A stretch of 31,294 bases of DNA from a virus: positions 1 to 31,294 of the IMG/VR virus record IMGVR_UViG_3300029309_000203; one strand, 5' to 3'. Below, one piece after another: positions 5,407 to 26,800 of this stretch. Each line of letters opens with the position of its first letter. Within the stretch, counting starts at the first letter, position 1. The notes beneath the pieces are model-generated. The model did no database searches, was not told the DNA's origin, and was given only the letters and a program-made list of their open reading frames with translations. Position numbers and translations under genes: made by a program.

Positions 5407-6087
5407 ATGTCTCACCTTATAAGTAATATACCGCATTTTAAATGTTGGGTAAGAAAAGAATTTACAGCAAATCACGAAAAATATCATGGGGAGTTTATAC
5501 ACGCATTAGCTATAGCAGTTAATACTATTCCTGATAGGTCATTAAGTTTTCAAGTAGTATTTACAGGTTGTGAAGATTCTGAAAATAATGTTCATGGTGG
5601 AGCAATGTGGGCAAGGATGCCTATACAAGGTTTAGTTGCAGATATACCTGTAGAAGAATGGGCAGAACCTATGGATGACCATTTAGCACAACCTTGGGAT
5701 TGTGAATCAAGAGAACATTCTGTAGTAGTTATGGATAGAGTAAGTTCTAGTCCTTGGTTATGTAAAATAGATAATAATTTTTATACTGGTAAATATTTAT
5801 TTACAGTTGATTACACAGGAAATTCTATTGCAGATTGTCCTGCACAACATAAACAATCTCATGTTTTATACATTACAGAAGATTGTGAATGGAAAGGTAA
5901 TTTAGTTGCTTTACCTAATAATAGAGTAAGAGCAACAAGTCCTGCTCTATGGGCAACAGGAGAGGGTGCACCAGATTTTAAACCATCTCAATATACTCAT
6001 TCAGCAGAAGGACATGAAAGTTATCTTGACCCATTAATAACATTTAATAATTTGTATAGTGAAGGATTTGATGATGAAATTGAATAG
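5407..6087 (+). CDS. Conserved marine phage protein of unknown function, 226 aa
   Basis: The N-terminus (MSHLISNIPHFKCWVRKEF) and the HGEFIHALAIAVNTIPDRSLSFQVVFTG-type pattern (split over residues 27-54) match a widely conserved marine phage protein for which I know no function. It is mixed alpha/beta, with Cys and Trp residues and several GGAMWARMPI / PWDCESREHSVVV segments. No signal peptide or membrane helix is seen. It follows the basic protein without a gap, and its 3' end overlaps the next small gene by 17 nt. A virion-associated role is plausible from context only. Confidence 0.7.
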   Translation: MSHLISNIPHFKCWVRKEFTANHEKYHGEFIHALAIAVNTIPDRSLSFQVVFTGCEDSENNVHGGAMWARMPIQGLVADIPVEEWAEPMDDHLAQPWDCESREHSVVVMDRVSSSPWLCKIDNNFYTGKYLFTVDYTGNSIADCPAQHKQSHVLYITEDCEWKGNLVALPNNRVRATSPALWATGEGAPDFKPSQYTHSAEGHESYLDPLITFNNLYSEGFDDEIE

Positions 6088-6223
6088 ACGACAAAAAGAA
6101 ACTTTAAAAAAACATAGTAAACATCATACCAAAAAACATATGGACGAAATGATAAAAGCTATGAAAAAAGGTACAAGTTTTAGTGCTGCACATAAAAAAG
6201 CTGTAAAAAAAGTAGGTAGATAA
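6071..6223 (+). CDS. Small Lys/His-rich basic phage protein, 50 aa
   Basis: From ATG 6071 (or ATG 6074) the frame encodes MMKLNRRQKETLKKHSKHH, then TKKHMDEMIKAMKKGTSFSA and AHKKAVKKVGR. The RQKETLKKHSxHHTKKHM pattern is one I recognise from very small conserved phage proteins. It overlaps the previous gene by 17 nt, with GAAGGA (6061-6066) as ribosome binding site, and its TAA overlaps the next ATG (TAATG). Strong positive charge suggests nucleic-acid association. Function unknown. Confidence 0.75.
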   Translation: MMKLNRRQKETLKKHSKHHTKKHMDEMIKAMKKGTSFSAAHKKAVKKVGR

Positions 6224-6465
6224 TGCCTTTAAAAAAATCTCAGAGGTCTTTAAAAAAATGGACAGGTCAAAATTGGACTACTCCTAGCGGAAAAAAATCA
6301 TCTGAAACAGGTGAAGTATATGCTCCAAAAGCACAAATAGATAGATTAAAATCTACACCAAAAGGACGAAGAAAACTTGCAGCAGCAAATAGAAAAAAAA
6401 GAGCAGCTACAAGAGCAGGTAAACAACACGCAAAACATGGTTTACATAAAGGAAAAAAAAGATAA
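6223..6465 (+). CDS. Small basic phage protein, DUF5872-like, 80 aa
   Basis: It starts MPLKKSQRSLKKWTGQNWTT and continues with SGKKSSETGEVYAPKAQI and a C-terminal basic stretch (RKKRAATRAGKQHAKHGLHK). This matches a widely spread small phage protein family, DUF5872 by my recollection. It is very basic throughout and has no membrane segment. It is coupled at both ends by TAATG, so it belongs to the same translational unit as the upstream small basic gene and the nuclease. Probable DNA-binding or virion-internal protein; function unproven. Confidence 0.7.
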   Translation: MPLKKSQRSLKKWTGQNWTTPSGKKSSETGEVYAPKAQIDRLKSTPKGRRKLAAANRKKRAATRAGKQHAKHGLHKGKKR

Positions 6466-6845
6466 TGGATAAATCTCCTGATGCGTTTGTATATAACGCT
6501 ACACTAGAAAGAATTGTAGATGGTGATACATTTGATTGCTGTCTTGATTTAGGTTTTGATGTAAAACTACATAAACAGCGTGTTAGACTTGCAGGTATAG
6601 ATACTCCTGAATCAAGAACAAGAGATTTAGCAGAAAAAAAATTAGGACTTGCTGCTAAAGAAAGACTTAAAGAACTTTGTTGTGGCAGTATAAAAGTTAA
6701 ATCTTTAGGTAAAGGTAAATATGGTCGTATATTAGGCATACCTTACACAGAAGATGGTGCAGATATCTGTCAAATTCTTATTAATGAAGGTCATGCTGTT
6801 GAATATCATGGAGGAAAAAAAGTTAAAATTTGGGGTGATTACTAG
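6465..6845 (+). CDS. Staphylococcal nuclease (thermonuclease)-like SNase protein, 126 aa
   Basis: The protein is a compact SNase domain with the active-site set intact: D21 (VDGDTFDC), R41 and the D46-T47-P48-E49 block (VRLAGIDTPESR), and R88 (GKYGRILG). These correspond to D21, R35, D40/T41/E43 and R87 of the S. aureus enzyme. It should be a Ca2+-dependent phosphodiesterase cutting DNA and RNA. No signal peptide is visible, so it probably acts in the cytoplasm or is carried in the virion. Possible roles are host DNA degradation or nucleotide recycling. It is coupled to its neighbours by TAATG (start) and TAGTG (end) and immediately precedes the membrane/curli block. Confidence 0.9.
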   Translation: MDKSPDAFVYNATLERIVDGDTFDCCLDLGFDVKLHKQRVRLAGIDTPESRTRDLAEKKLGLAAKERLKELCCGSIKVKSLGKGKYGRILGIPYTEDGADICQILINEGHAVEYHGGKKVKIWGDY

Positions 6846-7195
6846 TGGAATCAGCCGTTACTATTATACAAGAAGTTGGATTTCCTATTGCTGCTGCACT
6901 TGGTCTTGGTTGGTTTATATATAAATTAATAATGCGTATTGTTGATGGTATGGAAACTAAATTAGATACTGTTGATGAAAAAGTAGAAGGACAAATATCA
7001 GCATTAGAAGAAAGACTAGGTACAAAACTTGATACACAACATGGCATTTTAGTAGCATTAATAGATAGAGTTCGTAGTTTAGATAATGAAATTATTAGAC
7101 AAGACACTTTAATTAAAACTATTCTTGGTGTGCCACAACTAATAGATAGTAATAAAATAGCAAAGGCAGATAGAGATGACCAAAGAAAAGATTGA
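6845..7195 (+). CDS. Holin-like membrane/coiled-coil protein, 116 aa
   Basis: It begins at GTG 6845, overlapping the nuclease TAG (TAGTG). The N-terminus (ESAVTIIQEVGFPIAAALGL then GWFIYKLIMRIV) is one hydrophobic segment, residues ~7-32. Residues ~35-95 are a charged helix with heptads (KLDTVDEKVEGQISALEERL, then LDTQHGILVALIDRVRSLDN). The QEVGFPIA start is familiar from small phage proteins annotated as putative holins. A single membrane span plus coiled coil could also be a scaffold for neighbouring envelope proteins. The 3' end overlaps the CsgF gene by 20 nt. Confidence 0.65.
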   Translation: MESAVTIIQEVGFPIAAALGLGWFIYKLIMRIVDGMETKLDTVDEKVEGQISALEERLGTKLDTQHGILVALIDRVRSLDNEIIRQDTLIKTILGVPQLIDSNKIAKADRDDQRKD

Positions 7196-7676
7196 TAAAG
7201 AAGAATTAGAAAGATATAGACTTACAATAAGTATAGTTTTTATAGGTTTTGTATTATTTTTTGGTATTATTGTTATAAATTTAAAAGCAGATACTATTAC
7301 TCATAAATTTAAAAATCCATCATTTAGCGGTATTGGTACAAGTTCACACTATTTAACAATAGAGAATCAAGAATTTAACCGCAAAATGAGTATCAAAGAA
7401 GAAATAAAAGCTATTCAAGAACAATTAGAAAGAGACAAAGAAAATACTACATTAGCTAGATTTATTCGTAATTTAGAATCAAGAATTTATGCACAGTTAT
7501 CAAGACAATTAGTAGAAAATTTATTTGGAGAAACGCCAAGTACAGAAGGTACTTTGACATTAGAGGGTAATACCATCGAATATAGTATTAAAGATGGCAT
7601 TATTACTTTAATTATTACAGATGAAAACGGAAATGTTACGGAAATTCAGTTGCCTATTGGCGATTTTAGCTTCTAG
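7176..7676 (+). CDS. csgF: CsgF-like curli assembly protein, 166 aa
   Basis: A hydrophobic segment (residues ~17-34) ends at NLKA, followed by DTITHKFKNPSFSG (39-52). This aligns with the mature N-terminus of E. coli CsgF (TFQFRNPNFGG), the part that inserts into the CsgG pore. Later, a helical region (FIRNLESRIYAQLSRQLVEN) matches the CsgF central helix, and the end (IEYSIKDGIITLIITDE then TEIQLPIGDFSF) matches the C-terminal beta strands, including the final -DF-. It is about 28 residues longer than E. coli CsgF, from a longer n-region before the signal and an inserted charged helix (~70-90). The 16-residue n-region makes either cleavage after LKA or retention as an anchor possible. It overlaps csgG by 56 nt, as expected for a linked pair. 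Confidence 0.88.
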   Translation: MTKEKIDKEELERYRLTISIVFIGFVLFFGIIVINLKADTITHKFKNPSFSGIGTSSHYLTIENQEFNRKMSIKEEIKAIQEQLERDKENTTLARFIRNLESRIYAQLSRQLVENLFGETPSTEGTLTLEGNTIEYSIKDGIITLIITDENGNVTEIQLPIGDFSF

Positions 7677-8490
7677 TTGTAGTTTAGCTCCAGTAGATAA
7701 TAATTTGCAACAAGGTAAAACTTTGCCTAGTGTTTTACAAATACAATCAGAAAAATTATTAAATGTAAAACAACCTAAAGTCCCTATAGTTGTAGCAGTA
7801 TATCCTAATAGTTTTACAGACCAAACAGGTCAAAGAAAAAGTAATAGTGAATTTGCTTTGTTTTCTTCTGCTATAACACAAGCACCAAGTCATTTATTAA
7901 TTAGAACTTTAAAACATACTTCAAATGGTAAATTTTTTAGAGTTGCTGAAAGAGTAGGTTTAGATAACCTTACTAAAGAAAGACAACTTATACGCTCTGC
8001 TAGAGAACAAAATGAAGAAACAGATGGTAAAAAACCTATCATGCCTTTATTGTTTGCAGGTGTACTTATGGAAGGTGCTGTCATTGGTTATGACACAAAT
8101 ATAAAAAGTGGTGGTATTGGTGCTAGATATTTAGGTATTGGTAGTAGCAAACAATATCGTATAGATAATATAACAGTTGCTTTGCGTATGGTTTCTATAG
8201 CTACAGGAGAAGTATTAATTGATGTCTTAGTAAATAAACAAATTTATAGTTATGGACAATCACAAGATATTTTTAGATTTATTGAAGCAGGTACAGAACT
8301 TGTAGAAATAGAAACAGGAGATGTAGAAAATGAATCTACTACATTAGCACTACAAAGAGCTATAGAAGAAGCTGTTTTTCAAATTGTTAAAATAGGTTAT
8401 AACAAAGGTTTCTGGGAGGAAAAAGATGAAACAATTAAAATTAATAAGCCTGATTGTAATGCTGACTGCATTGACAACATACGGGGCTGA
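7621..8490 (+). CDS. csgG: CsgG-like curli secretion pore lipoprotein, 289 aa
   Basis: This is a near full-length match to CsgG, the nine-fold outer-membrane lipoprotein channel that exports curli subunits. A lipoprotein signal ends at ASS-C20. Conserved blocks follow in CsgG order: VVAVYPNSFTDQTGQRK (57-73), LIRTLKHTSNGKFFRVAERV, RQLIRSAREQ, LLFAGVLMEGAVIGYDTN, KSGGIGARYLGIGSSKQYRI, VALRMVSIATGEVL and a C-terminal AIEEAVFQIVKIGYNKGFW. The pore-loop region has one extra residue. Its Phe is kept (F81, E. coli F56), but the constriction Tyr and Asn (E. coli Y51, N55) appear replaced by small/polar or Leu residues. ATG 7621 is the longest start; ATG 7633 (MLRKFSCLLAILASSC) is an equally plausible, shorter lipoprotein signal. 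The tail contains CNADC. It overlaps the curlin-like gene by 65 nt. Confidence 0.93.
   Translation: MKTEMLRKFSCLLAILASSCSLAPVDNNLQQGKTLPSVLQIQSEKLLNVKQPKVPIVVAVYPNSFTDQTGQRKSNSEFALFSSAITQAPSHLLIRTLKHTSNGKFFRVAERVGLDNLTKERQLIRSAREQNEETDGKKPIMPLLFAGVLMEGAVIGYDTNIKSGGIGARYLGIGSSKQYRIDNITVALRMVSIATGEVLIDVLVNKQIYSYGQSQDIFRFIEAGTELVEIETGDVENESTTLALQRAIEEAVFQIVKIGYNKGFWEEKDETIKINKPDCNADCIDNIRG
8414..8420 (+). promoter_or_regulatory. Ribosome binding site GGGAGGA for the curlin-like gene
   Basis: A strong Shine-Dalgarno sequence lies inside the csgG coding region, 5 nt before ATG 8426. It supports true initiation of the overlapping secreted repeat protein at that codon. Confidence 0.75.
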
Positions 8491-9142
8491 TAACGAAATA
8501 TATATTGACCAGTCAGGTGCAACAGCTAATATAGATTTAGAACAAATTGGTTCTGGAAATATTATTGGTGGTTTAAATTCTGCAGCAGGTAGTTTAACTG
8601 CCTTAGATTTAGATGGTACAACTATGACACTAGATATAAATCAAATTGGTGATTCTAATAAATTTTTAGGTGATATTCTTGGTGATACTATAACAGGCTT
8701 TTTTGAATTTGATGGCGATAGTAATACTTTTACCATTCAAGGAGACCCTACTAATACATATGGTATTGATAATTCAAATTATAATGTTGATGTTACAGGT
8801 AATACTAATACATTTACTTTAGACCATGGAACAAGTGCTTTAGCAGAAACTCTTGATTTAGATTGGATTATACAAGGTGATGGTAATACATTTGACTTTG
8901 ACATAAATTATGATGGTGGTACTTCTTATGTTGATGTTGATGGAGATAGTAATACTTTAAACTTTACAGGTTCTGGTTATGCAGGTGGTTACTTTTATTT
9001 AGACCAAACAGGTAATAGTAGAACATTTAATATTACACAATCGAGTACACAAGATAATGACTGGCTCAAAATTATATCTATTGGCAATAGTGGTACTGTG
9101 TGCGTCATTCAAAACGACCAAGGCACAAGCACAAGTTGCTGA
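8426..9142 (+). CDS. Curlin-like secreted repeat protein (CsgA/CsgB-type), 238 aa
   Basis: A Sec signal (KQLKLISLIVMLTALTTYGA, cleavage near residue 21) precedes a mature protein made of about eight G-x2-N strand-turn units. Examples are LEQIGSGN (38-45), INQIGDSN (71-78), FDGDSN (95-100), VTGNTN (123-128), IIQGDGN (148-154), VDGDSN (171-176) and LDQTGN (192-197). The early units match the curlin consensus Q-x-G-x2-N of amyloid subunits. The middle is richer in Asp than E. coli CsgA and the Gln ladder is weaker. Two Cys sit near the C-terminus (residues 226 and 238). Together with adjacent csgF/csgG it is the natural candidate export substrate. It overlaps csgG by 65 nt and the FecR gene by 86 nt. 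Alternative: a non-amyloid beta-helical repeat protein. Confidence 0.8.
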   Translation: MKQLKLISLIVMLTALTTYGADNEIYIDQSGATANIDLEQIGSGNIIGGLNSAAGSLTALDLDGTTMTLDINQIGDSNKFLGDILGDTITGFFEFDGDSNTFTIQGDPTNTYGIDNSNYNVDVTGNTNTFTLDHGTSALAETLDLDWIIQGDGNTFDFDINYDGGTSYVDVDGDSNTLNFTGSGYAGGYFYLDQTGNSRTFNITQSSTQDNDWLKIISIGNSGTVCVIQNDQGTSTSC

Positions 9143-10172
9143 TATTGGAGATATATCTGAACTAAATGGTTCAGCACAAATTGTAAGAGATAAACCATAC
9201 GAAGCTAATTTAAAGTTTGCTATACAAAGCAATGATGAAGCTATAACTAAAAATGGTCGTATGGCTATTACTTTTTTAGATGATTCAACTGTAAAGCTAA
9301 CTGAACACTCACAGCTTTTAATAGATGAATATATCTATGACCCTGACCCAAGTAAAGCAAAAATGGCTCTTACATTTGGGCTCGGTACAGCAAGATTTAT
9401 TACTGGCAATTTAAATCGTATAGATAAACAAAATATATCTTTAAAAACACCTACTGCAAATATAGCCATTCGTGGAACTGATTTTACAGCTACAGTAGAT
9501 GAATTAGGTCGTAGCCTTATAATTTTGCTACCAGATGCTCTAGGGCTTTCTAGTGGCGAAATAGAGGTGGTTACAGCTACAGGAAGTGTTTTACTTAATA
9601 AACCATATCAAGCTACTACTGTAGATGTATTTGAGAGTTCACCTACTAAACCTGTAATATTAGATTTAACTTTAGATATTATAGATAATATGTTAATTGT
9701 TACACCACCTGAAGAAGAAGATATTGCACAAGAAGAAACAGCAACAACTAAAACAATTAATTTATTAGATTTTAATGATTTAGATATAGATTATTTAGCA
9801 GAAGATTTTTTAGAAAATAATAATTTAGAATTTACAGAATTAGATATTAATTATTTAGATGTAAATTTTCTTGAAGATTTGTTAGATGTTTTGGATGTTT
9901 TAGCAATAGAAAAAGAAGAGGACCAATTAGCTTTAGCCACAAGTGTAAATATTTCTGGTACTTTAATTGGTCAAGACCCAGATACACAAATAACGACAAT
10001 AGTAGCAGGACAAGTTATAAGTTTGCGTAGAAAAATAACTGAATCAGTACAAGTAGATTTAAACTCAGGAAATGGTTATACAGTAATTTTGATACAAGAT
10101 GGTGTTTCTAATATAGTTAAAATAAATGGTGGAGGAGACTCTGTTATAACAATTAACCAAAGTAGCGGATGA
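9057..10172 (+). CDS. Secreted FecR-domain protein, 371 aa
   Basis: A signal peptide (KLYLLAIVVLCASFKTTKAQA, cleavage near 25) is followed by a FecR domain (~27-160). Its features are the G-x-AQIVRD start, NGRMAITFLDDSTVKL, GTARFITG and the hallmark TPTANIAIRGTDF (131-143). Next come an acidic Leu/Asp repeat segment (~235-285, motifs DLDIDYL and ELDINYL) and a C-terminal strand region (VILIQDGVSNIVKING then SVITINQSSG) that resembles a curlin unit. FecR domains sense or relay signals in the envelope. Many bacteria encode such proteins beside a CHASE2 cyclase, which is the next gene here (ATGA overlap). It probably acts in the periplasm or outer envelope. The start lies inside the curlin-like gene and has no strong ribosome binding site, suggesting translational coupling. 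Confidence 0.88.
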   Translation: MTGSKLYLLAIVVLCASFKTTKAQAQVADIGDISELNGSAQIVRDKPYEANLKFAIQSNDEAITKNGRMAITFLDDSTVKLTEHSQLLIDEYIYDPDPSKAKMALTFGLGTARFITGNLNRIDKQNISLKTPTANIAIRGTDFTATVDELGRSLIILLPDALGLSSGEIEVVTATGSVLLNKPYQATTVDVFESSPTKPVILDLTLDIIDNMLIVTPPEEEDIAQEETATTKTINLLDFNDLDIDYLAEDFLENNNLEFTELDINYLDVNFLEDLLDVLDVLAIEKEEDQLALATSVNISGTLIGQDPDTQITTIVAGQVISLRRKITESVQVDLNSGNGYTVILIQDGVSNIVKINGGGDSVITINQSSG

Positions 10173-11923
10173 AAAAATTATTATTACCTATACTTATAAT
10201 ACTTTTATTGCCATTAATATATCAGTCAACACCTACAGAAATATTAAAACTAAAAGTATTTGATACATTTATACAAACACCAGAACCATCAGGTAATTTT
10301 ATAATACTTAATATAACAGAAGAAGATGTAGAGCGTGAAGGAGGTTATCCATTACCTAGAAAAAGATTAGCTGATATACAAATGGAAATTATTGGTAAAG
10401 GTGCTCTAGGTGTCGGTTGGGTTATATCTTTTCCACAAGCAGATAGAATGGGTGGTGATGAAGATTTTGGTAGGTCTTTAGGATATGTACCATCTGTTAT
10501 TGCTATGTTTGAAGATGGTAAAGGTAATTATCCTAAACCAACAGGAACAGTAGTGAAAGGTGAAGATAATGGTGGTATAGTATCTTTGGGAGTTAAGGAA
10601 AACCTGAACACTCTTAAAAATAATACATTGCAGGGTTTAGCCATTGCTCCCACAGAAGTTGACCAACTTGTAAGAAGAATACCTCTTTTAGTTAAAACAC
10701 CTAATAATAATTGGATTCCTAGTTTTGGCACACAAATATACAAAGCTTTATTTAATGTTAAAACTTATATTATAAAAACTAATGATAATGGTATAGAGGA
10801 AATATCAATACGAGGAATACCACCAGTAAAAACAGATAGTCTTGGTCGTAAATGGATTAGTTGGGTAGATACTGAACAAACAGACTTACAAGAAATGAAT
10901 GTAAATGGTAAATTTGTTTTTATTGGGGTTACAGCTAATGGAGTAATGCCACAAATTGCAACACCTGTTGGATTATTAGAACCACATAAAATACAAGCAG
11001 CATTAGCAGAATCAATTTTAATACAAGATAGTCCTTATATTCCTGATTGGCATTTAGCAGTTGAATTATTAATTCTGGTGATAACAGTAATTTTAGTTTG
11101 GTTATGTGTAAATATTTTTGGAATAACGCTAGGAATAACATTTACCAGTATATTATTCTTTTTAACAATATTTTCTGGACATTATTTAATTCAGCGTGGA
11201 ATATTAATAGATGTAAGTTGGACATTAATTTCACAATTTATAACTGCATCAATAGGTTTTTATTTAAGATTTAGACAACAATACAAATTAAGACAACAAA
11301 TTAAAAAACAATTTGAACATTATCTTGACCCAAGACAAGTTAAAAAATTACAAGATAATCCTGATTCTTTAGTATTAGGTGGTGAAAAAAGATACTGCAC
11401 TTTTTTATTTACAGATGTAAGAGGCTTTACTGCTATGTCTGAAAAATTAGAGCCAGAAGAAGTAACTAAAATTATGAATAAGGCTTTAACAATACAAGCA
11501 GATGCAGTTAAAAAATATAATGGTATGGTAGATAAATACATTGGTGATGCCATGATGGCTATTTTTAACGCACCAATTGACTTACCTAACCATGAAACTT
11601 TAGCTGTGTTATGTGCTGAAGAAATACAAGAAAATATTAAAAAAGCTGATTTAGGTGTTGAAATAGGAATAGGTATTAATACTGGATATGCTGTTGTAGG
11701 TAATATGGGAAGTGAAACAAGATTTGATTATACCGCTATAGGTGATGCAGTAAACCTTGCTGCTAGACTTGAAAGTTCTACTAAGGAAGTTGGTCAAGAT
11801 ATTGTTATTGGATATAATACAGTTAATGCAAAAGATTTTAATTCTGAAATAATATTAAAAGAATTAAAAAGTATATATGTAAAAGGTAAAACAAAACCAA
11901 TACAAATATATACAATAAATTAA
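10169..11923 (+). CDS. CHASE2-domain class III adenylate/guanylate cyclase, 584 aa
   Basis: The N-terminal membrane helix (3-20) is followed by a periplasmic CHASE2 sensor (~25-290; GGYPLPRKRLADIQMEI and KGALGVGWVISFPQAD are typical). Three membrane helices (~297-313, 316-335, 340-362) and a cytoplasmic class III cyclase domain (~385-584) complete it. Catalytic residues look complete: metal Asp D416 (FTDVRGFT) and D460 (KYIGDAMMAIF), substrate-selecting K456 and T522 (DYTAIGD), and transition-state N529 and R533 (DAVNLAARLE). Lys plus Thr at the selector sites fits class IIIb adenylate cyclases; cGMP cannot be excluded. It should convert ATP to cAMP in response to an envelope signal. It is coupled to the FecR gene by ATGA and precedes the holin. 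A full-length sensor cyclase is unusual in a phage. Confidence 0.93.
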   Translation: MKKLLLPILIILLLPLIYQSTPTEILKLKVFDTFIQTPEPSGNFIILNITEEDVEREGGYPLPRKRLADIQMEIIGKGALGVGWVISFPQADRMGGDEDFGRSLGYVPSVIAMFEDGKGNYPKPTGTVVKGEDNGGIVSLGVKENLNTLKNNTLQGLAIAPTEVDQLVRRIPLLVKTPNNNWIPSFGTQIYKALFNVKTYIIKTNDNGIEEISIRGIPPVKTDSLGRKWISWVDTEQTDLQEMNVNGKFVFIGVTANGVMPQIATPVGLLEPHKIQAALAESILIQDSPYIPDWHLAVELLILVITVILVWLCVNIFGITLGITFTSILFFLTIFSGHYLIQRGILIDVSWTLISQFITASIGFYLRFRQQYKLRQQIKKQFEHYLDPRQVKKLQDNPDSLVLGGEKRYCTFLFTDVRGFTAMSEKLEPEEVTKIMNKALTIQADAVKKYNGMVDKYIGDAMMAIFNAPIDLPNHETLAVLCAEEIQENIKKADLGVEIGIGINTGYAVVGNMGSETRFDYTAIGDAVNLAARLESSTKEVGQDIVIGYNTVNAKDFNSEIILKELKSIYVKGKTKPIQIYTIN

Positions 11924-11936
11924 TTTAAGGATTTTT

Positions 11937-12416
11937 ATGAAAGCAATACTAAAAAATATAGTTGGTGCTGTTGCTCCTACATTAGGTTCAGCTATGGGTG
12001 GTCCTCTTGGTAATATGGCTATGGGTAAAATAGCACAAGTGCTTGGAGTATCAAACGACCAAAAAACTATACAACAGGCTATGCAAAACGCTACTCCAGA
12101 GCAAATGCTAGAGCTAAAAAAAGCAGAACAAGAGTTTGAAGTTCAAATGAAAGAGCTAGATGTAGATGTATTTCAATTAGAAACACAAGACAAACAACAC
12201 GCTAGAGGTATGTTTAGCAAAGATTGGACAGCTAGAATTATAGGTTTATTTACTATAGGTGGTTTTTTAGGATATATATTCTTAGTTACATTACAACCAC
12301 CAGAACAAAATAGTGAAGCATTAATAAATTTAGTGCTTGGTTATTTAGGAGGATTAGCTAGTGCAATTATTTCGTTCTATTTTGGAGCGTCTCACACCAA
12401 CGATAAAGGAGAGTAA
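11937..12416 (+). CDS. Holin of the GTA 3TM type, 159 aa
   Basis: A Gly-rich amphipathic/hydrophobic N-terminus (IVGAVAPTLGSAMGGPLGNM) precedes a charged helix (ELKKAEQEFEVQMKELDVDV). Two clear membrane helices follow at ~100-118 (ARIIGLFTIGGFLGYIFLV) and ~129-150 (LVLGYLGGLASAIISFYFG). This layout, with DKQHAR before the first helix, matches the gene-transfer-agent-type 3TM holin family. It is placed directly before the endolysin gene. It should form inner-membrane lesions that let the signal-less endolysin reach peptidoglycan. AAGGA (11926-11930) precedes the ATG. Confidence 0.85.
   Translation: MKAILKNIVGAVAPTLGSAMGGPLGNMAMGKIAQVLGVSNDQKTIQQAMQNATPEQMLELKKAEQEFEVQMKELDVDVFQLETQDKQHARGMFSKDWTARIIGLFTIGGFLGYIFLVTLQPPEQNSEALINLVLGYLGGLASAIISFYFGASHTNDKGE
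12405..12413 (+). promoter_or_regulatory. Ribosome binding site AAAGGAGAG for the endolysin
   Basis: A strong Shine-Dalgarno sequence 4 nt before ATG 12418 fixes the endolysin start there. An in-frame ATG at 12361 would instead add 19 residues overlapping the holin. Confidence 0.8.
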
Positions 12417-12417
12417 T

Positions 12418-12861
12418 ATGAAAATATCACAAGAAGGATTGTCCTTAATTAAAAAGTTTGAAGGTTGTGAACTTAAAGCTTATCGTTGTGCAGCTAATGT
12501 TTTAACAATAGGGTATGGCTCAACTAAAAATGTTAAAGAAGGAGATACTATTACACAAGAAGAAGCTGATAAATTACTTTTACATGAAATGAAAGAATAT
12601 GAAGGTTATATAAATGACATGGTTAAATCTGATTTAAAACAAAATGAATTTGATGCTTTAGTATCATGGGTATTTAATTTAGGTCCATCAAATCTTTCTA
12701 GTAGCACACTTTTACAAAAATTAAATAATAAAGATTGGGATGATATACCAAATCAAATTAAAAGATGGAATAAAGCTGGTGGTGAAGTTTTACAAGGTCT
12801 TGTTAGAAGAAGAGAAGCAGAAGCTTTGCTATTTGAAGGCAAAGAATGGCATGAGGTTTAA
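12418..12861 (+). CDS. Endolysin, GH24 lysozyme (T4/P22-type muramidase), 147 aa
   Basis: The active-site triad is the E-x8-C-x5-T form seen in P22-type phage lysozymes: E15 (KKFEGCELKAY), C24 (YRCAANV) and T30 (LTIGYGST). A conserved LVSWVFNLG segment, a LLQKLNN motif and a C-terminal RWNKAGGEVLQGLVRRREAE complete the family pattern. It hydrolyses the MurNAc-GlcNAc bond of peptidoglycan. There is no signal peptide or anchor, so it depends on the adjacent holin. Length is normal for the family. It begins 1 nt after the holin stop, with a strong ribosome binding site inside the holin gene. Confidence 0.95.
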   Translation: MKISQEGLSLIKKFEGCELKAYRCAANVLTIGYGSTKNVKEGDTITQEEADKLLLHEMKEYEGYINDMVKSDLKQNEFDALVSWVFNLGPSNLSSSTLLQKLNNKDWDDIPNQIKRWNKAGGEVLQGLVRRREAEALLFEGKEWHEV

Positions 12862-12863
12862 TT

Positions 12864-14735
12864 ATGCCATTAGCCAAATATGTATTTAGACCAGGTATAA
12901 ATAGAGAAGGTACTAATTATAGTAATGAAGGTGGCTGGTTTGATGCAGATAAAGTTAGATTTCGTAAAGGCAGACCTGAAAGAATCGGTGGTTGGCAAAA
13001 ACAAAGTTTAAGTAGTTTTATAGGTACTTGTAGAAAAATTTATCCATATAAAGCAACTGATGGTACTGATTATATAACTTTAGGCACTCATCAAAAATTT
13101 TATGTATTACAAGGTAATGTTTATTACGATGTAACACCTATTCGAAAAACAAGCACTAATTCTATTACATTTGCAAAAAAAGAAGATGATACACCTATAA
13201 TAACTGTAACAGATAGTAGTCATGGTGCTGTAAATGGTGATTTTGTTACTTTTTCTAGTGCAGTAAGTTTAGGTGGTAATATAACTGCAGATGTTTTAAA
13301 TCAAGAATATCAAATTAGTTTAGTAACTGGAGCTAATACTTATGAAATAAGTGCAAAAGATACTTCAGGTACAACTGTAAATGCAAATTCAAGCGATTCT
13401 GGTAATGGTGGCTCTGCAACAGATGGTGTTTATCAGTTAAATTCAGGATTAGATGTTTATGTTAAATCTACTGGTTGGGGTTCAGGTACATGGGGTGAAG
13501 GAACTTGGGGTGCTACTACTGATTTATCTTTTACTAATCAATTAAGATTGTGGTCAATAGATAATTTTGGTGATGATACAGTATTAAATGCAAGAGCTGG
13601 TGGTATATTTTATTGGGATGAATCTTCTGGTTTAACAACAAGAGCAGTAAATGCTACTAGTTTAGCTGGTGCTAGTGATGTTCCTACAAAAGTATTACAA
13701 ATAATGATTTCTGATATAGATAAACACGCAATAGCTTTTGGTTGTAACCCGATAGGTTCTTCTGATATTGACCCACTATTAGTTAGATTTTCTGATGTAG
13801 AAAGTATTACAGATTGGACACCAACTGCAACAAATCAAGCAGGTGGAGTTCAACTATCCATGGGTTCTACAATTATAGGAGCTTTACAAACAAGACAAGA
13901 AATACTTATTTGGACAGATGCAGGTATAGTTTCTATGAGATTTGTAGGTGCACCATTTGTTTTTTCATTTACTGAAGTTGCAAATGGTCCATCTTTAATA
14001 GGACCTAATGCAGCAGTAAATGCTAATAATCAAGTTTATTTTATGGATAGTGGTGGATTTTATAGTTATTCAGGTAGTGCTCAAAGATTACCATGTACTG
14101 TATTAGATTATGTTTTTAATGATTTAAACAAACAACAAGAATATAAAATATTTGGTGCTGTAAATGATATTGCTAATGAAATTTTATGGTTTTATCCTTC
14201 TAAAAATAGCACAGAAGTAGATAGATATGTTTTATATAATTATTTAGAACAAGTATGGTCTATAGGAACAACATCAGATAATTTTGTTAGAACAGCTTGG
14301 AATGAAGCATTAATATTAAATAATCCTATAGCTGCTAGTAAAAATAGTAGTACAGATAATAATAATTTTCTTTTTGCACATGAAATAGGTCATGGAGACG
14401 ATGGTAGTAATTTTACTGCATTTATAGAATCAAGTGATTTTGATTTAGACCCTGATGGTGAAAAATTTATAGCAGTAAATAGAATAATACCTGATGTAGA
14501 ATTTAGAGACCAACAATCTACATCTGATGATGTAACTATAACTATAAAAGGTAGAAATTATCCATTAGAAGATTTATCTACTTTATCTACTGTATCAGTT
14601 ACACCAGCTTCTACATTTACTAATACAAGAGCTAGAAGTAGGCAATGTGCAATAAGAGTATCTAATTCATCAAATGATTATGGTTGGAGACTTGGTGATT
14701 TAAGATTAGATATAAGACCAGATGGTAAAAGATAA
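12864..14735 (+). CDS. Tail nozzle/stabilisation-type structural protein, 623 aa
   Basis: The N-terminus (KYVFRPGINREGTNYSNEGG then WFDADKVRFRKGRPERIGGW) is a signature I recognise from large structural proteins of marine podovirus-like phages. The remainder is beta-rich with repeated blade-like segments (GIFYWDESSG, EILIWTDAGIVSMRFVG, NQVYFMDSGGFYSYSG, EILWFYPSKNSTEVDRYVLY). This suggests a beta-propeller like P22 gp10 / T7 gp12 tail nozzle proteins. A WGSGTWGEGTWG motif lies near residues 207-218. It follows the lysozyme gene with a 2-nt gap and is coupled by TAATG to the next gene. Tail-tube or nozzle identity is inferred from fold pattern and position. Confidence 0.65.
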   Translation: MPLAKYVFRPGINREGTNYSNEGGWFDADKVRFRKGRPERIGGWQKQSLSSFIGTCRKIYPYKATDGTDYITLGTHQKFYVLQGNVYYDVTPIRKTSTNSITFAKKEDDTPIITVTDSSHGAVNGDFVTFSSAVSLGGNITADVLNQEYQISLVTGANTYEISAKDTSGTTVNANSSDSGNGGSATDGVYQLNSGLDVYVKSTGWGSGTWGEGTWGATTDLSFTNQLRLWSIDNFGDDTVLNARAGGIFYWDESSGLTTRAVNATSLAGASDVPTKVLQIMISDIDKHAIAFGCNPIGSSDIDPLLVRFSDVESITDWTPTATNQAGGVQLSMGSTIIGALQTRQEILIWTDAGIVSMRFVGAPFVFSFTEVANGPSLIGPNAAVNANNQVYFMDSGGFYSYSGSAQRLPCTVLDYVFNDLNKQQEYKIFGAVNDIANEILWFYPSKNSTEVDRYVLYNYLEQVWSIGTTSDNFVRTAWNEALILNNPIAASKNSSTDNNNFLFAHEIGHGDDGSNFTAFIESSDFDLDPDGEKFIAVNRIIPDVEFRDQQSTSDDVTITIKGRNYPLEDLSTLSTVSVTPASTFTNTRARSRQCAIRVSNSSNDYGWRLGDLRLDIRPDGKR

Positions 14736-20827: not shown

Positions 20828-23800
20828 ATGGCTGAATATGATATTGGCGGTGGGAAAAAAATAAAAGTTCCTGATAATTTAGACCCCGAAACAAGACTAC
20901 AATTAGCTGAAGTTGTTAAAGATAAATACGGCATTGATATAAATCAAACATCAGCATTAGAACAAGCAGGTGAATTTGTAAAAGCAATACCAAGAGGTGT
21001 TGCTAGTTTAGCTTTAGATGTACCTACAGGTATTGTTGGTTTATTTGACATTGGCAACGACAGTAATTTATATAAAGGTCTTGAAGGTTTACAACAAAGA
21101 TTAAGAGAGGATTCTGTATTAGCAGCAGACCCACGATATGCTGATAAATTTTCTACAAAACTAGGAGAAGGCATAGGTTCATTCGGACCATTCTTAGGTG
21201 CAGGTATAGTAGGTAGAGCATTATCTAAAGCACCAGGAGCAGCTAAAGGCTTCCTATCACCAACATTTACAGCACCAACAGCTTTAGCAATACCAACAGG
21301 TATAGCAGCACAAGGCGATAGACTACAAATGGCTAGAGAAATGGGTGAAGATGTAGGTGGTCTTACTGAAACTACTGCTGAATTATTCGGTGGTCTTATA
21401 GGTATAACTGAAGTATTACCTATTGCTAATATATTAGGTAAAGTTCATAAAAACGCACCATTATCTACTAAAGAAAAATTAGTATCAGCACTACAATCAG
21501 GAGCTGCTGAAGGTGGACAAGAAGTAGCTGCAAGTATATTACAAGATTTAACAGCTAGAGGTCTTTATAGTGAGGACTTACCTGTAGCAGATAGTATGTT
21601 TGAAGAGTTTACTATTGGAGGTATTATTGGTGCTGGTGCTGATTTAGTTGTCTCTAGTATGGCTGGTAAAAAATCTATTAGAAATAAACAATTAGAAGAA
21701 GATAATTTAAGAGTTAATGAAAATAAACAAAGATTAATACTTGCTAAAAAACAAGAACAAGCTATTGAACAAGGTGTGCTTGAAGAAATGCAAGATATGC
21801 CACCTATTACAGTTCCTCAAATTATTGCACCAGAAGAAAAACCTACAGAACCATCAATAGAGGTAGTTTCAACACCACAAGAAAAATTTGCTGTTGTTGA
21901 TATTAGTAATCCAGAATCTCCTGCACAGATTGATATAAAAGATACAGAAATAGAAGCTATTAAAGTTAGAGATAAGATATTAAAAGATTTTAATTTTAAT
22001 ATTTTAAAATCTAAATTAGATAATGATGTATATAATTTAGGTTTAATTAATAGTAAAAGTGCTTATGAAATAGGACAAAGTTTAGAAGATAGTAGAGCTA
22101 GTGATGTAACTATTCAACAATTAATTAATAGTGTACCTAAAGATTCTAAACAAGAAGTAATTCTTAGAGGTTTAGTAAATAGTTTTGTTGCACAAAATCC
22201 AGGCAAAACTTCTCGTAGTTATCCTAGATTATCTATGACAAAAGCTAAACAATTATTAACACCTAAACAGTTTAATGAATTTACATCTGCATATGCTCAA
22301 TCTGTATTTAAAAATTCTGAAAAAAATGGTGAGCCTTCTATTATTGCAGATAAAGATAAACCAGATACATCAGCTAAATATATAAAAGAAATAGCTGCAT
22401 CTAAAAATATAGATTTAGATTTTCAATCACCTGCTGTTCAATATGCAGCAGAAAAATATACAGGTACGCCTGAGTTTAAAAAAATGAAACAAGGTCAAAA
22501 AGAATTATTTTTGGCTAAACTTCATTCACTTCCTAAGTTCAATTCAAGAACAACTTTCCCAGACTTTAGACCAAGAAATTATACTGCACAAGATATGGCA
22601 GATTTTGTTGCTAACACAAAAAGCAATAAAGTAATTTTTGATAAAAATAGTTTATTAAAAGTTGGACCAGATTCTATTAGAAAAAACAAATTAGCTACAG
22701 AACAATTTATAGATGATTTAATTTATAGTGGTAGAGCTGAACAAATAGAAGGCACTAATAACTACAAAATTAAAGATAATTTTGAGTTTGATATAGCTAG
22801 AAAAGCAGAAGGTTTTAATGAGACTCCAGAAGAGTTTAGTGCAAGACTTACTGCAGAAGGTAAATTACCTCCAGAAACTATTGCAGAATTAGTAGAAAAA
22901 GAAACAAAAAATCAAGAAAAATTATTACCACCTGCAGAAATAGTTCCTAAAACTATTAACTATGCTGAAACTTTACAAGAAGGTAAAGTTAATAAATTTA
23001 CAAAAGAACTTAGAAAAAGATTAAATGCTGTAGGTCTTAAAGAAACTGGCATTGTAGTTAGTGATGACATACTTTCTACTAGTACATTGCAAAGAGTAGA
23101 AGGAAAAATAAAATTCGACCCAAGAGTAACTAGAGCTACAGAAACAGCAGAAGCAGTAGAAGGAGAATATGATAGAAATACAGATACTATTTTCTTATCT
23201 CTTAATGCAATAAATCCAGATGGTGGTGCTACAGAAGTAGAAATAGAAGAAAGATTAAGAAAAGTATTAGACCATGAAATGATTCATGCTTTTAGAGCTA
23301 AAGATTTAATTAGTGAAAAAGAATATCAATACTTAAAAAAATTAGTTAAAGATAAAAAGTTTCCTAATGACCCAGAAAAAAGAACTTTTTATAAAGAAGC
23401 TGTAGATAGAACTAGAAATGAATTAGCAAATAGAAATTTATCTGATGCTTTTAAAGAAGATTATATTGTAGAAGAAGCTATAGCAGAGTTATTTAGAAAT
23501 AAAGATTTACTAGTAAATACTCCTCCTAAAGTAGATGGTATTTTTAATAAGATAATTCAGTTCTTTAAAACTATGGGTCAAGCAATGCGTAGCTCAGGAT
23601 ATAAAAGTGCTACAGAAATATTTAATAATATAGAGTCTGGTAGAGTTGGTGCTAGAGAAAGAGGGGTTGTTAGAACTACGAGACTCTTAGATGCAGGTCG
23701 TATTCCTGCTAGTTTTATTAATATTGACCCTGATATACCAGCAGAACAACAAGAAATAATTCCTGGTGATGAAATAAGACAAACTTTAAAGCCTACAGGT

Positions 23801-26800
23801 ATAAGACCTGTATCTATACCAAAACCTGGACTAACACCTACTACACCTCCAGCAGGTCCTACAACGCCTCCTATTACACCTATTACAAGTCCTGTGCCAA
23901 ATAAAATTTATAATTCAAAACAAATGTCTGCAAAAGAAAGGTCTGATGAAAGAACTTTTATTTTAAATGGTCTTAGAAAAGCAGGTGTATTTAATCCAAG
24001 AAGTCGTACTAAAGGTGATTCTGTAAAAATGATGAAATGGTTAAAAAATAATGCACCTAATAAAGACTATAAAATTATAGCTACAAAAGTTCATCAATCT
24101 TTAGTTGCATTAGAAAAAGCAGGTTATAACTTTCCTTTAGAAATAACACAAGATAAAAGTAAAACAAGAGGTTATAGAGGTAGAGTTTCTTATCTTGCTT
24201 TAAGACCAACATATTTTGAAATGCGTATAAATGATGTATTTGGTAAAGATTTTGCAGAATTTGCAGAAGGTAAAATTGGACCTACAAATCCTGTTGCTAG
24301 AACATTAATGAATAGTAATGGTGTTAATTTTGAAACATTATTACATGAAGGCATACATCAAGCTACTGTTCCACATATGGAAGATGTAAGTGGTGGTCCA
24401 AAATCTAAAAATAAAAAAATACAAAAAGCATATAAAGATTTAGCTAGTCAAAGAACAAGAGTTGAGACTTATGTTAAAGATATTATGTCTAAATTTGATG
24501 AAGGTGCTACAAATATTGAATCAGGTAATTTAACTTTTGATGAATTTATGTCAAGTTTACCTACTACATTAAATAATTCTTTAAGAGTAGAGTTAAGAGA
24601 TGTATATTTTAATAATGGTAATTTAAGAACTAAAAGTGATATAAGAAGAAATTTAAGATATTTTAAAGAAAATTTAATAGATTATAGAATAAATGGAATA
24701 CAAAGCGGAAAAGCAAAACCAGATTCTTCAGAATTTTTAACATTTGGTTTAACAAATAGAAACTTTCAAGAACTATTAGAATCTATACCAACAAAACCAG
24801 GTGCTACTAAAAGTATATGGAATGAGTTTGTAGAAGCTATTAGAAATATATTAGGAATACCAGCTAAACTTGATACAGAGTTATCTGCATTTCTTAAAAA
24901 TGCTGGAGTAGTTTTAGATTTACAAGCTGAAGGTGTACCTCTTGCAGGTATGGATGTTGGTGGTAGAGGTGTAGCTGAAGAAGTTTCTTTATTTAGCAGA
25001 CCAACAAAAAAATATCCAACAACACAAAAAGAAATAAATACTGCACCAAGAGAAATACTAGAAGAAAGTTTAAATTATCACAATCAATTATTGTTTGAAA
25101 AACAAAGAGAACAAACAGTAGATAGTCCTATATTAAAAGATTTTGAAGAAAGAAGTTTAAATAGAGTTATAACAAATATATCAGCTATTATAAATAAAAC
25201 AGAACAAAGATTAAAAGAATTAGATAATGGCATACAGCCACCTTTATTTAGTAGAACTAATTTAATACCTAAAGATATTGAAGTTCCTTTTGATTGGGCA
25301 AGTAATAATCGTTTTGAAACTGGTGCAATATTAGACCAATTAATAAAAAGTAGAATAAGCGGTACTAGAGATAATCCAGGACCACTTAAAATGACTATAG
25401 TTGATGCATTTAAAGGTAAAAATAATAGACCTTTATTAAAAGCTAGTAAAAAGTTTTTAGAAAAATTTACAAATAAAAAAGGTAATTTAGTTTTATTTAG
25501 AACTTTAAATATTCCTGAAGGTGAAAAAATTAAAAACTATGGACAACTTCCAGAAGATTTATTTGCAAGTACAACATTAGATAGCAGACAGGCATTAAAG
25601 ATAGGTCGTAGTTTATTTAATAGAGCTCAAAGTCAAGGTGCAACATGGAATCCTGAAATACTTAGATATGAAGTTCCTATGAGTAAGGTAAAAGGTTATG
25701 TGCCTATGTTATTAAAAGCTATGGAATCAGATTTTATTACAGAATTTAGAAGTGATATGGCTGGTTCAGGAATCATGTCCCAAGAAGAATTAGATGCAGC
25801 AATAGAAGAAGCAGATGCAAAAGGAGATTTCTATAAATATCAAGGAGAACAAACAACAGAAGAATTATTAGCCGATGCTATATTTGAATATAATGGATTT
25901 ATAGAAGAAGCAGAAGTTCTTGCTGACCTTCGTGGCATTAAACCAACATATCAATATTCTCCTGCAACTAAAGATAGACAAGCTAGTTTAATTGATGATG
26001 TGCCTTTATTTAGTAGAAGTAGAAGAGATAGTAAAAGAAAATTTAGTGATTTTTATTATCACATAACTCCTACTCCAAATGTAAGAAGTATTTTACAGAG
26101 TTCAATTAATCCTTTAAAACCTTCTAATTTTATAAATGCTAGAACAGGTAATAGATTTCAAGATGAACCTGCAGTTTTTGCATTTACTAATCCAATAGAT
26201 GCAATTCAATGGTGGAGTAATACAACATTTAATAGAGAAGATTTATCTATATTATTAATAGATAAAAATGCTAATAATTGGACACAAGACCCAGCTAGTA
26301 TGTCATTTAAAGATAACATTAAAGAAGATTTTAGACTTGTAAATTCTGATGTATTTGGTTTTGGAGCTAATGAACAGCCTACTTCTGTCATAACTACGCA
26401 ACCTGTTCAAGCAAAAGATATTAAAGGTTCATTAACACTTCCTGATTTATTTGGAAAATTAGGAGAAATATATGGAACTGTATCAGGAATTGATAATACA
26501 ACACCTTATTATGGTTTATTACCAACTCGTATCGATGGTAAAGAAGAACAAATTACATATATGAATCGTGTTGCTGAAGCATTAAATCCTATGCCTAATA
26601 CACAAAAAAATATACAGTTAAAACAAGCTGTAGAAGAAGCTGAAGAAATAGTTAAACAATCACCTAGAGGTTCAATACCTTATTATAATTTAAATGCTTC
26701 AGACACAGCATTAAAAGCTGCTATAGACTTTAATAAAGATTTATCTGCTGAAAAACCTGATGATATACCTAATTTTTCAAGACCTACTCTTGATAATATA

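Follow-up and report, generated by a model that had tools for sequence, protein, structure and literature searches.

A predicted type VIII (curli) secretion cassette with FecR-domain and CHASE2 cyclase genes in the late region of a phage genome

INTRODUCTION

The closest described relatives of the locus reported here are the curli cassettes of pelagiphages. The podoviral gene order CsgF-CsgG-CsgA/B-FecR-AC was published in 2022, together with evidence that phage curli genes are expressed in metatranscriptomes (PMC9599517). Curli arrangements have been published for both HTVC023P-type and HTVC008M-type pelagiphages (PMC9599517, PMC7029224, PMC9004378), and superinfection block and sibling capture have been proposed as their benefits (PMC9599517, PMC7029224). 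The authors of the Melnitz paper call csgA/csgB missing and saw infected cells stay free of visible clumps (PMC9004378). The Melnitz record itself contains curlin-repeat genes, which its authors did not count as csgA/B (PMC9004378).

FecR-domain proteins and CHASE2 cyclases are known from bacteria. In Campylobacterota, a FecR outer-membrane protein is clustered with CHASE2 cyclases (PMC9239204), and in S. meliloti the outer-membrane barrel NsrA passes a signal to CHASE2 cyclases (PMC13001267).

Here, we analyzed the IMG/VR virus record IMGVR_UViG_3300029309_000203, whose 31,294 bases constitute the window. An initial annotation had noticed a trio of curli-type genes within this window and had mentioned csgF and csgG in some marine phages. 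Both genes are indeed annotated in the HTVC008M and Melnitz records, with curlin-repeat genes alongside. The linkage to a curlin-like gene, which had been thought less familiar, is correct but has already been published (PMC9599517) and is visible in those same two records. The record, from a marine virus of bacteria, adds one more member to a known kind of cassette.

RESULTS

The cassette genes all lie on the + strand. Their left neighbor is a gene for an SNase-like nuclease (6465..6845; PF00565, E 9.2e-13), a usual companion that was found at most related loci reaching that far left. The block starts with a gene for a 116-aa protein with a single transmembrane segment and a coiled coil (6845..7195), followed by csgF (7176..7676), csgG (7621..8490), and the gene for a predicted curlin-like secreted substrate (8426..9142). 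The initial annotation had placed these last three genes correctly and had given the extent of the trio, 7176-9142, accurately. However, the unit continues to 11923 with two genes that had been missed: fecR, coding for an exported FecR-domain protein (9057..10172), and a gene for a CHASE2-sensor class III adenylate cyclase (10169..11923). The csgF/csgG, csgG/curlin, curlin/fecR, and fecR/cyclase frames share 56, 65, 86, and 4 bases, respectively, and these overlaps suggest that neighboring cassette genes may be translationally coupled. No terminator-like sites were found in a scan of positions 6000-13000, and a promoter scan returned 28 promoter-like sites, compared to 38.8 expected.

To the right of the cassette lie genes for a holin-like protein (11937-12416, +; GTA_holin_3TM, E 0.05), a phage lysozyme (12361-12861, +; Phage_lysozyme, E 6.3e-49), and a stabilization-type virion protein (12864-14735, +); the right-edge lysis genes also matched phrog_1544 (E 5.6e-27). 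From 61 to 29497, the + strand carries the tail-fibre region, small genes, the cassette, the lysis genes, the stabilization-type protein, and further virion-region proteins, while the - strand genes after 29497 include RusA and a RecA-dependent nuclease. The claim of phage flanks was borne out by the SNase, the lysozyme, the stabilization/virion protein, the tail-fibre region, and RusA, whereas the holin match was weak. Taken from the predicted frames, the cassette parts are all present and intact, overlapping on the same strand inside the late block, and conserved. Megablast of the phage backbone against phage records gave no match. Elsewhere in the window, a 226-aa protein (5407-6087) matched phrog_3704, which is annotated as ferredoxin (E 9e-30), with no Pfam hit, and a 2889-aa polyvalent protein (20828-29497, +) carries an LPD38 domain near its C terminus; the first third of this protein is without a relative in the phage collection.

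The assignments of CsgF and CsgG made in the initial annotation both stood up to profile searches. CsgF matched PF10614 (E 4.6e-18; 66.1 bits against a cut-off of 25.8) and consists of an N-terminal signal/anchor segment followed by D-TITHKFKNPSFSG. This N-terminal block aligned with TMTFQFRNPNFGG of E. coli CsgF, with FKNPSFSG opposite FRNPNFGG, so that the pore-inserting N terminus that marks the CsgF of a type VIII (curli) secretion system is recognizable; a PDB search with CsgF returned no match. CsgG matched PF03783 (E 1.1e-46) and the solved chains of E. coli CsgG (E 1e-44 across residues 7-270, nearly the entire protein, including the SGGIGARYLGIG block). It has a lipobox (...LASSC), a lipobox-like motif is present in 107 of 114 relatives, and together these features identify the pore lipoprotein of type VIII secretion. 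No CsgE periplasmic gate was found among the proteins of the 31,294-base record. CsgE is missing from most of the alphaproteobacterial curli loci examined and is therefore not a general requirement.

The initial annotation had also called the third gene product curlin-like. The protein alone scored below the PF07012 cut-off (E 0.021; 15.2 bits against 20.7), but 18 of 30 members of its family matched this model, the best with 8.6e-6. A curlin-repeat substrate of type VIII secretion is thus recognizable at the level of the family, while the single protein stays under the Pfam cut-off. Beyond its signal peptide, the AlphaFold model (pLDDT 79.5) is all beta. The sequence, with its conserved Q, G, and N residues, contains 8 G-x-x-N motifs (2.9 expected from shuffled sequences; P 0.0016) as well as 2 Q-x-G-x-x-N motifs (0.14 expected; P 0.009). 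The top three viral structural matches of the model were phage proteins named 'Curlin associated' (best E 1.4e-4, TM 0.68); against the PDB no significant match was obtained (best E 0.35). By itself the curlin-like protein is the least secure member of the set, but the family scan, the motif statistics, and the comparison of predicted structures agree. Cysteines at residues 226 and 238 are invariant in 28 of 28 podoviral curlin-like proteins and absent from the first curlin of myophages.

In HTVC008M and Melnitz, and at almost every related locus, csgF is preceded by one or two homologues of the 116-aa gene; in some phages, the two copies have diverged. By position and copy number, we equated this gene with the 'HK' of the published podoviral cassette (PMC9599517). 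Among 15 members of the family that were scanned, we detected only weak YvrJ-like matches and no HisKA or HATPase kinase domains, which rules out a sensor histidine kinase at 6845-7195. Judged by its sequence, the product is a small membrane coiled-coil protein, and the 'histidine kinase' label should be questioned.

The FecR-domain protein (PF04773, E 1.7e-9) has a signal peptide, a FecR domain at about residues 64-149, an acidic leucine-rich middle, and an IxQDGxxN...ITIxQ tail; PF04773 is present in 37 of 37 members of its family. By Pfam, it has no cytoplasmic anti-sigma domain, and a search of the proteins of the 31,294-base record turned up neither a sigma factor nor a TonB receptor domain. 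Both elements of a FecI/FecR iron-citrate system, an anti-sigma N terminus and a FecI sigma partner, are accordingly missing here. With neither part, the protein does not appear to fit the label of iron regulator, which should be questioned. The structure model of this protein had a pLDDT of 34. By eye, its C-terminal 40 residues (IQDGVSN...ITINQ) resemble one degenerate curlin repeat; hhalign against curlin gave a probability of 1.5% and a score of 17.7 (highest score over 40 column shuffles, 17.25), and Pfam found no curlin repeat on the tail.

The cyclase matched the CHASE2 (PF05226, E 4e-24) and cyclase (PF00211, E 3.5e-19) models. Asp416, Asp460, Lys456, and Arg533 are kept in 100 of 100 relatives and Asn529 in 99 of 100; we take these to be the metal-binding and catalytic residues, following the roles generally assigned to them in class III cyclases. 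The CHASE2 domain and the retained catalytic residues place the protein among the CHASE2-sensor class III adenylate cyclases.

We compared the locus with the known phage cassettes. Like the HTVC023P-type podoviral cassette (PMC9599517), it comprises a small membrane gene, CsgF, CsgG, CsgA/B, FecR, and adenylate cyclase, and no CsgE. Unlike that cassette, it has no second curlin gene, its 'HK' is without a kinase domain, and its FecR is exported and paired with CHASE2. A tentative assignment to the HTVC023P type draws on gene order and a handful of virion proteins: p143 is 55%, the fibre N terminus 42%, and the stabilization protein 31% identical to those of HTVC023P, in the same order, and DSL-LC04 is similarly close. 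The backbone proteins are thus only 31-55% identical to those of HTVC023P, in which no CsgG was found; the more distant phages DSL-LC04, HTVC023P, and 023Pt_psg01 all have related fibre and stabilization genes with the cassette absent. The myophages HTVC008M and Melnitz share the gene order of the record, with identities of 37-43% for CsgG, 38-44% for CsgF, 36-37% for FecR, and 32-35% for the cyclase. They differ in having a second curlin-repeat gene between FecR and the cyclase, and in the Melnitz cyclase Ser replaces the conserved catalytic Asn.

One scan of IMG/VR yielded 306 stretches with CsgG relatives, of which 80 were fetched for gene order. The order SNase, 116-aa gene, csgF, csgG, curlin, fecR, cyclase recurred wherever the contig was long enough, with few edge exceptions. 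In a second survey, seeded by the stabilization protein, CsgG was present in 30 of 30 related phages whose upstream sequence spanned 5.6 kb or more, and the cyclase in 47 of 47 for which 2.8 kb or more was available. The curlin-like gene was present wherever a related contig reached it, and the longer relatives of the record are contigs of 53-63 kb. On these counts, the cassette is a core feature of the group, which rules out a chimera. The same arrangement in all 30 relatives confirms the earlier view that the trio belongs to a genuine phage genome, and CsgG at the same place in each of them settles the proviso attached to it, namely that host and phage DNA might have been joined in assembly.

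Median dN/dS values against relatives were 0.071 for curlin, 0.088 for the 116-aa gene, 0.121 for CsgF, 0.123 for FecR, 0.124 for CsgG, and 0.198 for the cyclase; a nearby virion gene, at 0.286, lay above every cassette gene. By these estimates the cassette genes are under purifying selection, curlin most strongly. CsgG and the stabilization protein were discordant at some loci, with identities of 93% beside 53% (L003, L007) and 61% beside 85% (L127). Virion-gene identity and cassette identity were negatively correlated, but the choice of loci by one or the other accounts for at least part of this, and therefore the individual discordant loci alone serve as evidence of exchange. They suggest that diverged phages have exchanged the curli block, such that cassette and virion backbone can probably move separately.

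For bacterial counterparts, we took the closest CsgG proteins from a collection of 84,980 genomes, which gave 77 curli loci. Three contigs filed as Maricaulis, Flavobacteriaceae, and Rhodobacteraceae MAGs (L169, L170, and L171) were set aside; the phage cassette lies inside them, and they appear to be phage DNA binned into MAGs. The cyclase frame of L170 has an internal TAA. A 1.5-kb unverified 'Salmonella phage' contig of coverage 2 (L084, OR851715.1) carries a CsgG relative about 38% identical and is probably bacterial rather than phage DNA.

None of the 77 bacterial loci had FecR or a relative of the 116-aa protein near the curli genes, and none had a cyclase of the phage type next to csgFG; a single weak match to the cyclase lay about 10 kb off (L189). 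Alphaproteobacterial loci (e.g., Roseovarius, Sphingomonas, and Henriciella) have a CsgF-CsgG pair, mostly without CsgE, and a CsgG 37-45% identical to that of the record. Unlike the phage cassette, they lack FecR, CHASE2 cyclase, and 116-aa genes in the vicinity. With E. coli csgBAC/csgDEFG, the record shares CsgG (36%), CsgF (17%; N-terminal block), and the type of curlin repeat; in contrast, it is without CsgD, CsgE, and CsgC, its CsgF differs in the C-terminal half, and FecR and the cyclase are extra.

Conversely, among 40 alphaproteobacterial CHASE2-cyclase loci, 17 encoded a FecR-domain protein no more than about 5 kb from the cyclase, and no curli genes were seen at any of the 40. The bacterial FecR-CHASE2 clusters (Campylobacterota, PMC9239204; compare S. 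meliloti CyaD/NsrA, PMC13001267) place an envelope protein beside a cyclase, as here, but unlike the phage cassette have no curli link in the loci examined. Since the pairing occurs in bacteria without curli, the phage cassette looks like two joined bacterial devices, curli export and a putative envelope-sensing cyclase, a combination found only in phages among the loci examined.

DISCUSSION

We consider the chances slightly better than even that the locus is a phage type VIII (curli) cassette with a FecR-CHASE2 sensor pair, by which a curlin coat would be exported late in infection, the envelope monitored, and cAMP used as the signal. According to this model, signal peptides would direct CsgG, CsgF, curlin, and FecR to the envelope late in infection. 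CsgG would form the outer-membrane pore, which CsgF would line or cap, and the curlin-like protein would be exported and form a beta-rich fibre on the surface of the infected cell. The exported FecR-domain protein may sense either curlin left unexported or the condition of the outer membrane or pore, and may control the cyclase in the inner membrane. The resulting cAMP could tune host physiology or timing ahead of the action of the neighboring lysis genes. It is likely that CsgG/CsgF export the curlin-like protein, a reading favored because the substrate is so strongly constrained. The role of FecR and the cyclase as an envelope sensor is suggested by analogy with the bacterial pairing. The most likely benefit of a surface coat would be to block superinfection or to hold neighboring hosts or sibling cells close; the earlier proposals of superinfection block and sibling capture fit such a coat. 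The lack of clumping among Melnitz-infected cells (PMC9004378) speaks against the model.

A more specific version of this model is tentative and, in our estimate, rather unlikely: a phage lineage may have fused two bacterial modules, with FecR sensing CsgG pore or curlin traffic and driving the CHASE2 cyclase, and cAMP reporting export to time takeover or lysis.

Alternatively, the pore alone could matter, CsgG/CsgF opening the outer membrane for uptake of nutrients or cofactors, or depolarizing the envelope to time lysis, with curlin secondary. Such roles have been proposed for Melnitz and pelagimyophages (PMC9004378, PMC7029224), no CsgE gate is encoded, and holin-like and lysozyme genes adjoin the cassette. 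However, the curlin-like gene is the most constrained of the set (dN/dS 0.071) and present wherever a contig reaches, CsgF, a fibre-attachment protein in bacteria, is retained, and the nearest alphaproteobacterial curli loci are mostly without CsgE as well. We regard a pore-only function as unlikely.

Iron is limiting for surface-ocean bacteria, and a shared FecR domain (PF04773) could suggest an iron-linked role. FecR has been read as a ferric-citrate-type regulator tuning curli or siderophore import (PMC9599517). The signal peptide at the start of FecR, where no cytoplasmic anti-sigma part is present, speaks against this, as do the lack of any sigma factor or TonB receptor domain found in the 31,294-base record and the recurrence of FecR-domain proteins beside CHASE2 cyclases in curli-free bacteria; we hold it to be very improbable. 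Less probable again is a place for the curlin-like protein in the virion or tail, with CsgG/CsgF kept for another reason: its gene does sit between tail-fibre and stabilization-protein genes, but the protein has a signal peptide and is co-inherited with CsgF/CsgG in unrelated myoviruses, in a different kind of genome position. Finally, although curli genes are normally bacterial, an assembly chimera or host contig end is refuted to near certainty by the 30 of 30 positive relatives, by the same junctions in independent contigs of other samples (one of them, L087, nearly identical throughout), and by the different arrangement of the 77 bacterial loci, which are without FecR, cyclase, or 116-aa gene.

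What is new here is that FecR and the cyclase resemble a separate bacterial sensor pair, which leads to a specific hypothesis other than iron regulation. If the more specific version of our model were true, the cassette would be a self-monitoring secretion device, that is, a circuit encoded by a virus and signalling from envelope to cytoplasm. Should our reading of the system be right, infected ocean bacteria, some of them without curli of their own, would gain a virus-coded amyloid coat and a cAMP signal, and this would alter current thinking about the ways in which common marine phages handle rivals and sparse hosts.
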